Shown piece by piece: positions 4,495 through 29,089 of a stretch of DNA of 42,122 nucleotides. The notes below the pieces were generated by a model, which searched no databases, was not told where the DNA came from, and saw nothing but the letters and a program-made list of their open reading frames with translations. The stretch lies in NCBI RefSeq assembly GCF_022763305.1, contig NZ_JALEGT010000001.1, positions 1 through 42,122 of the forward strand, in the 5' to 3' direction. The DNA is from Marivita sp. GTDB lineage: Bacteria; Pseudomonadota; Alphaproteobacteria; Rhodobacterales; Rhodobacteraceae. Position numbers and translations under genes: made by a program. Numbering within the stretch: position 1 is the stretch's first letter; the number at the start of each line of letters is the position of its first letter.

Positions 4495-6090
4495 TCAGTT
4501 CTTTTCGACGAGACGGTAGTACACGTAATCCGAGCTTGCGCCGTTCACGTAGCCCTGCACGTCGTCGTCCATTGCAACCTGCTTGGTCGCCTGGAACATG
4601 ATCACAAAGGGCGCCTCCTGCTGCATGGCCTCCTGCAGCTCGACATACATCTGGTTGCGTGTCTCGGCATCGCGTTCGGCCAGAGCCGCCATCGTCTTCT
4701 TGTTGATGTCCTCGGGCGGCATCCACGCATTGCGCCAAGTCGTGGTCGACACATAGGCGTCGTCGGAATTGTCCGCGTTATAGGCAAAGGCCTTGGCGTT
4801 GGAATGCGGGTCCATGAAATCTGGCCCCCAGTACAGCAGCATCCCTTGATGGGTCCGCGCGCGGTACTTGGTGATCACCTGCGCCCCGGTGCCGGGCAGG
4901 ATGTCGAAGTTGATCCCGGCCGGCGCAAAGGTCTGCTGCAGGCTTGCCGCGATATCCGTGAAGGGGGCCGCATTGATCACGTCGAGTTCGATGTCGAGCG
5001 GCAGCTCGACGCCGCCCTCTTCGAGGATCGCCTTGGCCTTCTCGGGATCGTAGGTGAACGGCGTGTCGGTCAGGGCTCCGGGGAAGCCTTCGGGCCAGAA
5101 CGCCTGATGCACCTCCATCTGCCCCTTGAGGAAGCTGTTGGCCATGCCCTCGTAATCCACGAGGTAGCGGGACGCCTCCCACAGCGCGGGGTTGGTCAGC
5201 GGCTCGTATTTCTGGTTGAAGCTGAACCAATGGACGGCGGTCTGCGGGTAGGTCTCGATGCGAATGTCCGCGTTGCCCTCGAGACCGGCAACCTGATCCG
5301 GAGTCAGGTTCTTGGCCATGTCGACATCGCCGGATTCCAGAAGCAGGCGCTGGGTGGCGGCTTCGGCGACATGCCGGATCAGCACGCGCTGCATGCCGGG
5401 GGCACCATCCCAGTAATCGGGGTTGGCATCGAGCATCAGCACCTCGCCCGGTGCATAGCGCGCGAGTTTGAACGGCCCGGTGCCGGCACTGTTCTGGTTC
5501 ATCCAGCCGTGGCCCATGTCGCCATCGACCTCGTTGGCCATCGCCGTTTCGACATCGACAATGGAGGCCGGACGCGAGGCCAGAACGTTCAACACGAAGG
5601 ACGGCGCGAAGTCGCCCGACCAGCGCGCAGTGACGGTGTTGCCGTCGGTGGTCACCATCTCTTCGAGATTGTCGGCGGTCCAGCCAAGGTTGCCGAGAAT
5701 GAACGCCGGAGCCTTGTTCAGCACCAGAACGCGCTTCCAGCTGCCGACCACGTCTTCGGCACGCAGCGGGTTGCCGGAATGGAACGTCACCCCCTCGCGC
5801 AGCGTGAACGTGACCGATTTCGCGTCGGCGTCGATCTCCCAGTCGGTGGCAAGGCCCGGCGCGAGGGTGGTGGTGTCCTCGGCCCCGTACTGCACAAGCT
5901 GGTCATAGGTGTTGGTCACGTATTCGCCGGACGAGAATTCATAGGCGGTGGCCGGGTCGATGGTGACGATGTCGTCGATGTTCTGGGCGATCACCAGCGC
6001 GTTTGCGGGTGTTTCTGCCAGGGCGGGCGCGGTGGACAGTGCGATCAGGCTGACCGCGAGGGCCTTGGTGAAGGTCGTGGCATGTTTCAT
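4495..6090 (-). CDS. ABC transporter substrate-binding protein, family 5 (peptide/amine type)
   Basis: A 531-residue periplasmic solute-binding protein of the DppA/OppA family (SBP_bac_5). An N-terminal Sec signal peptide of about 25 residues ends at APALA/ET. Domain I then begins with the family pattern around ITIDPATAYEFSSGEYVTNTYDQLV and the highly typical LREGVTFHSGNPLRAEDV. The ATG follows AGGAGAG at a normal distance. The gene lies divergently from permease and ATPase genes at 6842-10285, with a regulator gene between, and I infer that they form one importer. Family members bind di- and oligopeptides, nickel-histidine, opines or polyamine-like ligands. The ligand cannot be read from sequence, though the M24 peptidase and GAF genes behind it suggest a peptide-like or amide-like compound. 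Confidence 0.92.
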   Translation of the reverse strand: MKHATTFTKALAVSLIALSTAPALAETPANALVIAQNIDDIVTIDPATAYEFSSGEYVTNTYDQLVQYGAEDTTTLAPGLATDWEIDADAKSVTFTLREGVTFHSGNPLRAEDVVGSWKRVLVLNKAPAFILGNLGWTADNLEEMVTTDGNTVTARWSGDFAPSFVLNVLASRPASIVDVETAMANEVDGDMGHGWMNQNSAGTGPFKLARYAPGEVLMLDANPDYWDGAPGMQRVLIRHVAEAATQRLLLESGDVDMAKNLTPDQVAGLEGNADIRIETYPQTAVHWFSFNQKYEPLTNPALWEASRYLVDYEGMANSFLKGQMEVHQAFWPEGFPGALTDTPFTYDPEKAKAILEEGGVELPLDIELDVINAAPFTDIAASLQQTFAPAGINFDILPGTGAQVITKYRARTHQGMLLYWGPDFMDPHSNAKAFAYNADNSDDAYVSTTTWRNAWMPPEDINKKTMAALAERDAETRNQMYVELQEAMQQEAPFVIMFQATKQVAMDDDVQGYVNGASSDYVYYRLVEKN

Positions 6091-26425: not shown

Positions 26426-26464
26426 GGAGGTTTGGCAGAGTGGTCGAATGCGGCGGTCTTGAAA
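26426..26464 (+). tRNA. tRNA-Ser(UGA), 5' exon
   Basis: The 39-nt 5' half ends with the whole anticodon loop CTTGAAA (26458-26464). This loop is also the intron's IBS1, the exon sequence it pairs with. The intron begins directly after with GTGCG. Confidence 0.92.
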
Positions 26465-26729
26465 GTGCGCCGATTTCGGCGTGAAATTGGTAGAATAGGA
26501 GTCTATTCCACACTGTGTGAATGTGTGTAAAACACCGCGGTTAGGTCGGATCGAAAGAGAAGGCTGAACATAGCATCCGTGGAAAAGCGGCGTTGAGGCG
26601 AACGAGTTGTAGCCAAGGAGAACGCCGCAGTTAAGTTGCATATGGTTAAATCTACACTGATTGAACCCCAGTCTATCCGGGACCACTGCGACCCTTGACG
26701 GAAAAACTCGCGATACCGTCGACTTTGCT

Positions 26730-26758
26730 CAGAGGAAAAGGTTTTCAAGTTTCCTCTG
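26730..26758 (+). other. Domain I hairpin with EBS1 (and delta base)
   Basis: CAGAGGAAA (26730-26738) and TTTCCTCTG (26750-26758) form a perfect 9-bp stem. The 11-nt loop contains TTTCAAG (26743-26749), the exact reverse complement of the exon end CTTGAAA (26458-26464). The base just 5' of EBS1, T26742, can pair with the first 3'-exon base A29039, as expected for the delta-delta' contact of group IIA introns. This fixes the splice and insertion site independently of the tRNA fold. Confidence 0.85.
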
Positions 26759-26989
26759 CCACACAGCAAAGGGAAGCATGCGCGAAGCATGCCAACGGAC
26801 GAAACGGGAACCTAAGTGCAACCTATAACCAGTTTCTCGCAAAATTCGGGAATGCCTAAGGGGAGTAATCCCTATGGTATCGGAGTCGCCGTAGTAGTCG
26901 TTCCGCTGTGCGGTATAATGACGGTTGTAATGATCGTAGAAGACGAAGGGCGACAGGTTCTCAGCTGAAGGATGAGGAGGTTTATCCGG

Positions 26990-28828
26990 ATGGATAACAA
27001 AGGCCTATTAAGACTTCAGAAACTGAAGACGCTGAATGCTGACCCTAACTGGGAAAACAAAGATCTATACCGTCTGATGTATATGGAAGAACTCTATATC
27101 ATCGCCTACGAAAAGATCAAAAGTGAACCCGGTAACATGACTGCGGGGGCGGATAACAAAACCATTGATGGCTTCTCTATGTCGACCATCAATAACACTA
27201 TCCGCAAGATGAAGGACCAGAGTTTCGATTTTACCAGAGCAAGAAGGATGCATATCCCCAAAGCGAACGGTAAGACGAGGCCCTTGGGAATTCCCTCCCC
27301 CAAAGACAAAATCGTTCAAGAGGTCATTCGAATGATTCTCGAATGCATCTATGATGGCTCCACGCCAACATTCTCTGAACGATCTCATGGCTTCCGCGAT
27401 GGAAGAGGGACACACAGTTGCCTACAGGTCGTTCGTTCATGGAACGCTGTTTCATGGTTCATCGAAGGAGACATCAAAGGATGCTTCGATAATGTGGACC
27501 ACCACGTTCTCATGGATATCCTGAAGAGGCGGATCAAGGATCAACGATTTTTGGACCTAATCTGGAAAACTCTTAGGGCGGGGTATATGGAGGGTAACAT
27601 CCACCATAACTCCATCATCGGGACTCCCCAAGGGAGTATCGTTAGTCCTATTTTGGCTAATATCTACTTACATGAGTTTGATATGTGGGTAGAGGACTGG
27701 ATCGCCAATCACGAGAAGTCCCAACGTAAACGGACCAACCCGGAATACACGTATTACGTCAAAGAGCTGAACAGGATCAAGAATGGCAAGAAACGTGTCT
27801 CTCCAGAGAGATACGCCGAACTCGTCAAGGGGAAACTCCACACCCCATCTCTAATGCACAACGACCCCGAACATATCCGGGTAGTATACGTGCGCTACGC
27901 TGACGACTGGCTAACAGCTATCGACGGACCCCGCCACTTGGCGGAGAAATTCAAAGCCGAAGCCACCGAGTTTTTCCTTGGAAAACTCAAACTGGAACTC
28001 AGCGATGAGAAGACGGCCATCAGGAACGCCAGGAAAGAAGAAGCTGTTTTTCTCGGAACCAGTATAACTATCGGTTCTGGAGACAATATTGTTCAACGCA
28101 GCTTACCACCTCGTGGCAAAACGCTGATCAAACGTCGGACAAATACTGCCCACCTCACTTACATGAGGATGCCTACTGAGAAAATTCTTAAAAGGCTTCG
28201 GGAAAATGGCTTTATCGACGGCACCAACCAGCCCCAAGCACGACGCGCTTGGATCAACAAAGAAGACTGGGAAATCGTAGAAGCCTACAATGGCATTATA
28301 CGAGGCTACCGGAACTACTATTCATTCGTGGATAATCCGCGTAGCCTTCACTACCTCCAGTATCTTCTTCAATATTCGTGTGCAAAAACCCTCTGCAACC
28401 AAAAGAGAATTTCCTTACGGAAACTCTTCCGGAAGCACGGGGTTGGATGCAAAGTCCCCAAGAAATGGGATAAAGACGGAAAGGTCATCAAGTTTTCTGA
28501 ACTTGCGCTACAACGCAGCTTCAAGAAAAATCGGATGGATTTCAAATGTGGCAAAGGTCCCTCGGATCAAGTCACACTTGGGATTAAATACCTTACACGA
28601 ACAAAGCTGGACGAAGACTGTGTAATCTGCGGAGAGACCGAAGGCATCCAGATGCACCACGTCAAACATCTCCGAAAAGATAAGGCAAAAGGCTTCACGC
28701 GGATCTTGCAGGCTATCAACCGTAAACAAGTCCCGGTCTGTCATAAATGCCATGTGGGTATTCACATCGGCTCCTACGATGGAATCTCCATCAAGGACTT
28801 GGCAAACCCGGCTGTTGCACGTAAGTAG
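26990..28828 (+). CDS. ltrA: Group II intron reverse transcriptase/maturase with HNH domain
   Basis: A 612-residue intron-encoded protein. The RT domain covers about residues 50-350, with HIPKANGKTRPLGIPSPKDK (RT1-2), WFIEGDIKGCFDNVDHHVL (RT3), GTPQGSIVSPILANIYLHEFD (RT4) and the catalytic YADD at 303-306. The maturase (X) domain includes YNGIIRGYRNYYSFVDN (from 433) and SCAKTL. The C-terminal HNH endonuclease has CVIC (544-547), HHVKH (556-560) and CHKCH (584-588). The pattern is that of the mitochondrial-like lineage, as in fungal cox1 introns and Ll.LtrB. An ATG at 26972 is in frame, but GAGGAGG at 26974-26980 is ideally placed for the ATG at 26990. The protein should promote splicing and retrohoming. 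All key motifs are intact. Confidence 0.95.
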   Translation: MDNKGLLRLQKLKTLNADPNWENKDLYRLMYMEELYIIAYEKIKSEPGNMTAGADNKTIDGFSMSTINNTIRKMKDQSFDFTRARRMHIPKANGKTRPLGIPSPKDKIVQEVIRMILECIYDGSTPTFSERSHGFRDGRGTHSCLQVVRSWNAVSWFIEGDIKGCFDNVDHHVLMDILKRRIKDQRFLDLIWKTLRAGYMEGNIHHNSIIGTPQGSIVSPILANIYLHEFDMWVEDWIANHEKSQRKRTNPEYTYYVKELNRIKNGKKRVSPERYAELVKGKLHTPSLMHNDPEHIRVVYVRYADDWLTAIDGPRHLAEKFKAEATEFFLGKLKLELSDEKTAIRNARKEEAVFLGTSITIGSGDNIVQRSLPPRGKTLIKRRTNTAHLTYMRMPTEKILKRLRENGFIDGTNQPQARRAWINKEDWEIVEAYNGIIRGYRNYYSFVDNPRSLHYLQYLLQYSCAKTLCNQKRISLRKLFRKHGVGCKVPKKWDKDGKVIKFSELALQRSFKKNRMDFKCGKGPSDQVTLGIKYLTRTKLDEDCVICGETEGIQMHHVKHLRKDKAKGFTRILQAINRKQVPVCHKCHVGIHIGSYDGISIKDLANPAVARK

Positions 28829-28839
28829 TAGCGGATTGA

Positions 28840-28929
28840 GGAGCAGTGGCAGAGTGGTCGATTGCGTTCGACTTGAAATCGAATGAACGTTCGCGCGTTC
28901 CGTGGGTTCGAATCCCACCTGCTCCTCCA
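28840..28929 (+). tRNA. tRNA-Ser(UGA) carried inside the intron
   Basis: A complete 90-nt serine tRNA starting 12 nt after the RT stop codon. The acceptor stem GGAGCAG/CTGCTCC is perfect (7 bp). The D stem is GCA/TGC with the same D loop as the host gene. The anticodon stem TTCGA/TCGAA is perfect, with loop CTTGAAA and anticodon TGA at 28874-28876. The variable arm has a 5-bp stem (GAACG/CGTTC) and the T arm is GTGGG-TTCGAAT-CCCAC. CCA is encoded at 28927-28929. The discriminator is U (28926), where most bacterial tRNA-Ser have G. It reads the same codons as the interrupted host tRNA but differs in every stem except the D stem. It lies in domain IV, upstream of domain V, so it is inside the intron. 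Confidence 0.93.
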
Positions 28930-28951
28930 TTAGCGCGTATGGAGAACTGGA

Positions 28952-28985
28952 GAGCCGTGTGCTGTGAAAGCCGCAAGCACGGTTC
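28952..28985 (+). ncRNA. Group II intron domain V
   Basis: A 34-nt hairpin beginning GAGCCGTGTGC and ending GCAAGCACGGTTC, with a GAAA tetraloop (28966-28969), the asymmetric internal bulge and the catalytic AGC triad (28953-28955). Length and sequence match the domain V consensus. This is the active-site element of the ribozyme and appears intact. Confidence 0.92.
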
Positions 28986-28987
28986 GG

Positions 28988-29036
28988 AGGGGGGTTGTTG
29001 GTTATCCTGTCTCAACAGGACCCGGCAGCCTACCCT
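28988..29036 (+). ncRNA. Group II intron domain VI with branch-point A
   Basis: GGTTGTTGG in the 5' strand pairs with CCGGCAGCC in the 3' strand through a fully paired 9-bp stem (with G-U pairs), continued by TCCTGT/ACAGGA. Below the stem, the A at 29032 is unpaired and sits 7 nt from the intron 3' end, the usual place of the branch-point adenosine that attacks the 5' splice site. Confidence 0.8.
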
Positions 29037-29038
29037 AC

Positions 29039-29089
29039 ACCGTTGGGCGTGAGAGCGTCCCCAGGGTTCGAATCCCTGAGCCTCCGCCA
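29039..29089 (+). tRNA. tRNA-Ser(UGA), 3' exon
   Basis: The 51-nt 3' half begins with ACCGT, which pairs with GCGGT of the 5' exon. It then holds the long variable arm, the T arm, the 3' acceptor strand AGCCTCC, discriminator G and CCA. Confidence 0.92.

Follow-up and report, generated by a model that had tools for sequence, protein, structure and literature searches.

A group II intron in the genome of Marivita sp. interrupts a gene for a serine transfer RNA, tRNA-Ser(UGA), and carries within itself a second, divergent tRNA-Ser(UGA). The stretch analyzed, which we call the window, comprises the first 42,122 nucleotides (nt) of contig NZ_JALEGT010000001.1, and the intron occupies positions 26,465 to 29,038. 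Three megaplasmid-borne introns with related reverse transcriptases (RTs) share this design, and in all four cases the anticodon of the internal (cargo) tRNA is that of the tRNA gene that is broken. They are probably retromobile group II introns belonging to a small RT lineage, with anticodon loops as their targets and a replacement isoacceptor provided from domain IV. The features of the window element, in which EBS1 and EBS2 are the exon-binding sites of the intron, are as follows.

26426 to 26464, forward strand: 5′ exon, host tRNA-Ser(UGA) from position 1 to 38, identical to the uninterrupted gene in 13 of 16 congeners
26465 to 29038, forward strand: group II intron, 2574 nt, starting GTGCGCC and ending CTAC
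26685 to 26689, forward strand: candidate EBS2 (ACTGC), facing exon positions -12 to -8 (GCGGT) with four Watson-Crick pairs and one G-U pair
26743 to 26749, forward strand: EBS1 (TTTCAAG), pairing 7/7 with the anticodon loop CTTGAAA (tRNA positions 32-38)
26972 to 28828, forward strand: intron-encoded RT/maturase, 618 amino acids (P0001), with RVT_1 and Intron_maturas2 (Pfam)
28840 to 28929, forward strand: cargo tRNA-Ser(UGA), 90 nt, CCA encoded (ARAGORN)
28950 to 29038, forward strand: domain V/VI of the intron (Rfam RF00029)
29039 to 29089, forward strand: 3′ exon, host tRNA-Ser(UGA) from position 39 through the CCA

The insertion separates tRNA positions 38 and 39. The original prediction held that the two exons rebuild a tRNA-Ser(UGA), and that a second one of 90 nt folds between the RT stop codon and domain V; both claims are borne out. 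ARAGORN accepts the 90-nt sequence made by joining 26426-26464 to 29039-29089, and the same 90-mer is uninterrupted in 15 of 16 other genomes of the genus, 13 at 100% identity and two at 99% and 98%. For the cargo, ARAGORN is joined by an Rfam tRNA match at 28840-28926 (61.3 bits, E 5e-11). The RF00029 match (64.2 bits, E 1.7e-10, cut-off 40) ends exactly at the exon, and not before the start of the cargo. These two Rfam E-values, together with the recurrence of the design in independent replicons, rule out chance.

By every feature tested, the window element is a group II intron. The model match supports the fold of domain V/VI only, and the 5′ part is assigned by sequence alignment of five introns, namely those of the window, Cupriavidus necator (L109), Pseudomonas silesiensis plasmid pPL1 (L110), Pseudomonas sp. 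FeN3W (L111) and a relative from IMG/VR (L198); the location of the RT in domain IV is also taken from this alignment. All five introns start with GTGCGCC. The window RT matches RVT_1 and Intron_maturas2 above the Pfam cut-offs and has the YADD motif. Its TIGR04416 score of 253 bits is under the cut-off of 300, a weak MatK_N match is likewise under its cut-off, and no HNH family was found by Pfam at E<=0.001. By eye, a Cys/His pattern at the RT C-terminus (window 28619-28765) resembles an HNH endonuclease. The RT open reading frame (ORF) contains three TCA codons. At 48.7%, the G+C content of the intron departs from that of its flanks (62.6% and 58.8%).

In the draft genome of the window strain (4.43 Mb, 121 contigs, 99.72% complete), no unbroken Ser(UGA) was found apart from the cargo, which answers the question, raised with the original prediction, of whether another copy could be found. 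There are 40 tRNA matches in this genome, 39 of them typed by ARAGORN and the fortieth beginning at a contig end. The serine anticodons are GCT, GGA and CGA, plus UGA in the cargo, and BLAST of the joined tRNA gave no other Ser(UGA) in this genome among the matches listed. Searches of phages, plasmids and genomes of the family for the origin of the cargo returned no close source: the best matches are Rhizobium phage tRNA-Ser genes (81% over 80% of the length), followed by Rhodobacteraceae plasmids (74-80%) and one genome of the family (78%; three of 115 genomes matched, the window's own included). The best plasmid matches of the host tRNA, from Ruegeria and Tritonibacter, reach 90%.

A search for other introns with tRNA cargo, as the original prediction proposed, recovered three. 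The best-ranked RTs in a plasmid collection come from C. necator (46% identity), P. silesiensis pPL1 (43%) and Pseudomonas sp. FeN3W (44%), and an RT on a Microvirga lotononidis plasmid (L112) aligns at 43% over 82%. On pPL1, the intron (L110 2508-5120) interrupts tRNA-Leu(UAG) at 38/39; its cargo, another tRNA-Leu(UAG), lies at 4898-4981, between the RT and domain V. The FeN3W intron (L111 2363-4928) interrupts tRNA-Leu(UAA) at 38/39, and its tRNA-Leu(UAA), at 2797-2881, lies upstream of the RT; the cargo is downstream in the other three introns. ARAGORN folds the joined hosts and the cargos of both as tRNA-Leu(UAG) and tRNA-Leu(UAA), respectively. Broken and cargo tRNAs are identical at 70 of 85 positions in L110 and at 60 of 86 in L111. 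The other two relatives examined differ: the Cupriavidus intron has a frameshifted RT, and the IMG/VR intron (RT 43%) lies by eye in an apparent TnpB gene; both are outside tRNA genes and have no tRNA cargo.

The Microvirga copy has lost its 5′ part, has a tRNA(CAU) after the RT, and is followed by a 3′ exon that is a tRNA half. This plasmid has only one other tRNA match, a tRNA(CAU) without interruption. Its 3′ half has the same sequence as the exon, and its flank aligns with the exon flank at 82% over 388 positions. This intact paralogue with its matching flank identifies both the target and the 38/39 break, which is seen directly in the window, L110 and L111. Cargo and target agree at 58 of 76 positions. 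ARAGORN labels the target Met, but it may be of the tRNA-Ile2 kind, which it resembles by its acceptor stem when compared with the CAU tRNA of the window genome. Two further observations concern this locus. Domain V contains another, nested group II intron that encodes an RT of its own (L112 4660-7080, NZ_CP141049.1), which makes a bacterial twintron, and by eye the 5′ part of the outer intron has been replaced by an apparent serine recombinase gene.

Whole-plasmid ARAGORN searches extend the isoacceptor census to the two Pseudomonas plasmids. Plasmid pPL1 has 41 tRNAs, with Leu genes CAA, UAA and GAG plus the cargo UAG; the FeN3W plasmid has 55, with UAG, GAG and CAA plus the cargo UAA. Infernal gave 41 and 56 tRNA matches, respectively, and on both plasmids no candidate for the missing Leu gene was present among the Infernal matches left unnamed by ARAGORN. 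The cargo is thus the only unbroken isoacceptor found in three of the four cases, the draft window genome, pPL1 and the FeN3W plasmid. The claim that the cargo replaces the gene broken by the intron has gained strong comparative support. If about 40 anticodons are assumed to be possible, four chance matches have a probability of about 1 in 2.5 million; the four matched anticodons are difficult to account for other than by replacement.

The tRNA genes on these plasmids form near-full decoding sets and are mostly clustered (NZ_CP143488.1, 41 genes; CP136011.1, 55 genes). Two tRNA-like genes on them are unusual in themselves. An 87-base 'tRNA-Val(GAC)' at L321 6244-6330 (CP136011.1 755743-755829) has a long variable arm, and the element at L318 1485-1562 (NZ_CP143488.1 647084-647161) has an enlarged anticodon loop and is rejected by ARAGORN as a plain tRNA.

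The insertion site borders the sequence with which EBS1 pairs. A search for complementarity to the exon end places EBS1 at intron coordinates 273-279 in all five aligned introns, at 279 in the window and at 273-276 in its four relatives. EBS1 pairs with all seven anticodon-loop bases in the three tRNA introns that allow the comparison, 7/7 in the window and L111 and, in L110, with six pairs and a G-U. For a 7-mer of this kind, the chance per position is 0.00005-0.0005 in the four introns tested. EBS2, chosen as the best 5-mer in the 45-base stretch upstream of EBS1, lies at 221 in the window and at 220 in L110, where it pairs 5/5; the best candidate in L111 is weak.

One rival account treats the exons as dead relics of an intron that has stopped splicing, with the cargo having become the functional gene by lucky capture and playing no part in rescue during spread. 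A sole unbroken isoacceptor in three of four cases is in line with this account, and the Microvirga copy, with its replaced 5′ end and split domain V, has decayed. However, the exon halves are undamaged and still pair in the three complete copies, and one lucky capture does not readily yield four separate replicons with the same design. We consider this account unlikely.

Controls addressed how far tRNA cargo extends among related introns. ARAGORN found no tRNA in the 32 (of 36) genome-contig relatives given to it, in any of 79 viral-contig loci, in the relative L278, or in any of four outgroups from plasmids. To detect split tRNAs, a T-arm motif was sought in the 700 nt that follow the RT; 3 of 126 relatives have it, and these are L110, L111 and L112. 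At least 250 nt after the RT are present in 110 of the 126, and this test is blind to cargo upstream of the RT, which the ARAGORN scans see. It took the place of a domain V regular expression, which was too insensitive and was dropped. In an RT tree of 29 chosen sequences, rooted at the midpoint, the four tRNA introns fall in a group of seven (support 97/99) with L109, L198 and L278. L110 and L111 are sisters (96/85), as are the window and L112 (99/93), and the tRNA habit requires two changes, either one gain and one loss or two gains. Because the cargo of the sister RTs L110 and L111 stands on opposite sides of the RT, separate gain or relocation of the cargo is indicated, and with it selection for the match.

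In a second rival account, efficient splicing restores the host tRNA, and the cargo rides along as a passenger that is retained on other grounds, for example tRNA supply or intron folding or processing. In the window the exons are intact, the joined tRNA is identical to the gene of 13 congeners, and EBS1, EBS2 and domain V are intact. Moreover, two of the plasmids have large tRNA sets (41 and 55), so that supplying tRNAs would be a habit of plasmids. Against this stand the four matched anticodons, which would be unexpected without a replacement role, and the lack of any tRNA in the scanned RT relatives outside tRNA genes. We regard a mere passenger as quite improbable. An assembly artefact or chance neighbors, in which two tRNA genes and an intron were wrongly joined in a draft of 121 contigs, can be set aside almost entirely, given the precise splice-site ends, the EBS1 pairing, and the recurrence of the design in plasmid records that others submitted as complete. 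Capture of a tandem tRNA pair in place was rejected on two grounds, that congeners have one uninterrupted tRNA and that the cargo is identical to the joined host tRNA at only 64 of 90 positions.

Taken together, these observations favor introns that compensate for their own insertion, and the following model would account for them. EBS1 pairs with loop bases 32-38, such that a tRNA would be recognized by its anticodon, and the intron inserts at 38/39, carrying a second, divergent tRNA of the same anticodon in domain IV. The transcript of the broken gene would read through the intron, ordinary tRNA-processing enzymes would excise the cargo from domain IV, and the cargo, once charged, would decode the codon of the broken tRNA with or without splicing of the exons. 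The targets tRNA-Ser(UGA), tRNA-Leu(UAG), tRNA-Leu(UAA) and, provided that it is tRNA-Ile2, the CAU tRNA are usually the sole readers of UCA, CUA, UUA and AUA. Selection would then act to keep the cargo, the target tRNAs being sole readers of a codon. As for how the cargo was gained, we speculate that the RT switched templates to a tRNA that EBS1 was holding by the anticodon loop.

Several points weigh against this model. Tyr, Ile-GAU and Ala-UGC are absent from the 39 typed tRNAs of the window genome, and a second Ser(UGA) in an assembly gap is therefore possible. The Microvirga plasmid retains an intact paralogue of the broken tRNA, and the Pseudomonas chromosomes very likely hold their own copies of the tRNAs broken on the plasmids, which makes essentiality there doubtful. 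There is no promoter-like site ahead of the cargo, so its transcription rests on read-through. The EBS1 assignments are also not uniformly strong: L110 has a second match at coordinate 60, and EBS1 of L198 is only a 6-mer with one G-U. The known cases number four and, apart from the window's own, none came from the wider genome samples. Finally, excision of the cargo would sever the intron RNA within domain IV, in competition with mobility. Most natural trans-splicing group II introns are broken in domain IV (PMC4424553), which indicates that this domain tolerates breaks. Release of the cargo thus need not block splicing, though it should block retrohoming of that molecule.

The original prediction further drew a parallel to a gene drive with a recoded rescue copy, and recoding that would shield the cargo from renewed insertion has partial support only. 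Pairing of EBS1 with the cargo is retained in the window, L110 and L111, because the loop holds the anticodon. EBS2 pairs less well with the cargo, keeping one Watson-Crick pair and one G-U in the window and three of five pairs in L110, in keeping with recoding. However, the cargo anticodon stem in Microvirga is nearly the same as that of its target, and in L111 EBS2 is weak to begin with. It must also be considered that any two unrelated isoacceptors would differ in the anticodon stem. Recoding as self-protection is thus possible in two cases, the window and L110, and is not general.

The distribution of the intron fits its arrival in the window's lineage alone, as judged from three lines of comparison: the empty sites of congeners, an RT confined to its own genome, and the deviating G+C content. 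Sixteen empty-site loci that were fetched (15 from congeners and one from another genus) all align through the junction as single stretches with no more than small gaps; they include the left flank of the window, and homology mostly stops at the tRNA 3′ end. An RT of the window type occurs in 1 of 17 genomes of the genus and in 1 of 292 genomes of the order sample, in both cases the window's own. The remaining congener, G302, gave no full-length match to the joined tRNA-Ser(UGA). This genome is 99% complete and also has no RT of the window type among what was found, which may reflect a gap or some other disruption. Two congeners have a second, partial 3′ copy of tRNA-Ser(UGA) (G140:C74:21577-21623 and G297:C39:36150-36179), the one in G140 lying about 11.4 kb beyond the full gene. 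These copies resemble attachment-site duplicates, and the same tRNA may also serve as an integration site for islands.

The surroundings of the intron are ordinary chromosomal genes. Upstream are genes for a D-Ala-D-Ala carboxypeptidase, a DNA polymerase III delta-type subunit and a TatD nuclease, and downstream are catabolic and TRAP-transport genes; in the 20 ORFs that were scanned, Pfam matched no integrase family.

Wider searches found few candidates. A combined domain V and T-arm pattern occurs in 7 of 398 Pseudomonadota genomes, and only the window's is an intron in a tRNA gene, the other six being judged by eye not to be; among 76 stretches with this pattern in the viral collection, none is an intron in a tRNA gene by eye. 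An RT profile search matched 2 of 396 genomes of the phylum, the window's own and G567, whose copy lies by eye inside another RT gene, and gave no match in 249 genomes of the genus of G615, 199 of the order of G413 and 150 of the order of G649. The E limits were 1e-30 for the order search, 1e-20 for the genus search and 1e-110 for the profile searches, which hides weaker relatives. A single-protein scan of genome contigs gave 36 loci, with at most 40% identity over long matches, and the same type of scan gave no match in viral contigs; it depends on exact peptides, and relatives at 43-46% could escape it. The profile scan of viral contigs gave 197 relatives, of which 79 loci were kept. Phage records held nothing at 43% or above among the matches listed. 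Domain V-like sequences outside tRNA genes were seen at L132 7076 and L158 6002 (IMG/VR contigs) and at L120 1501 (G396).

Comparison with known systems suggests that the unusual features of the window intron are its site and its cargo. With LtrA-type bacterial introns it shares the GTGCG start, the AY end, domain V, an RT/maturase, and the pairings of EBS1 and EBS2 with their intron-binding sites IBS1 and IBS2. It lies in a tRNA gene and carries a tRNA, whereas bacterial RT-encoding group II introns are found mostly outside housekeeping genes (PMC4424553). A parallel in position is the chloroplast trnK intron, a group II intron with the maturase MatK inside an essential tRNA gene; MatK has lost its RT motifs (PMC4424553). 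The window RT is unlike MatK in having the YADD motif and the RVT_1 match. The trnK intron is not known to bring a replacement tRNA, and the plastid relies on its splicing. Putative group I introns interrupt tRNA-Leu(UAA) and tRNA-Arg(UCU) in Thiomargarita and a relative; these genes span about 320-350 bases, and the passages that describe them mention no tRNA cargo (PMC4853749). Here tRNA genes are interrupted as in the window, but by another ribozyme. In Ophiostoma minus, a mitochondrial atp6 intron holds a tRNA gene beside a LAGLIDADG ORF (PMC7902536). Like the window intron, it has a tRNA adjoining an intron ORF, but its host is a protein gene, which leaves nothing for the tRNA to replace. 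Genomic islands and phages with tRNA genes as their targets integrate by site-specific recombination and restore the 3′ end by identical sequence. These elements also return the function of the tRNA that they break, whereas the window intron supplies a separate, divergent tRNA. The strategy of the window intron has, to our knowledge, not been described. We know of no group II intron in bacteria that has entered a tRNA gene or that carries a tRNA, and no description of one with both was found in open-licence papers in PMC, a search outside which most subscription papers fall.

These introns may well represent a natural class of self-rescuing retroelements, and we lean toward this broader view: EBS1 would read the anticodon, the sole tRNA for a codon would be broken, an isoacceptor would be supplied in domain IV, and the match of anticodons, having arisen more than once, would let the elements spread through essential genes shunned by other introns. 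Insertion would presumably harm the host if it were not compensated, which is where a parallel to a gene drive with a rescue copy suggests itself. If true, this would be a natural bacterial case of insertion with rescue, and it raises the questions of how processing of the cargo is balanced against splicing and retrohoming, and how an intron comes by a tRNA matching its EBS1. Further introns of this kind might be hidden where annotation overlooks split tRNAs. An intron that compensates for its target would, if the model is correct, open essential, conserved genes as landing sites.

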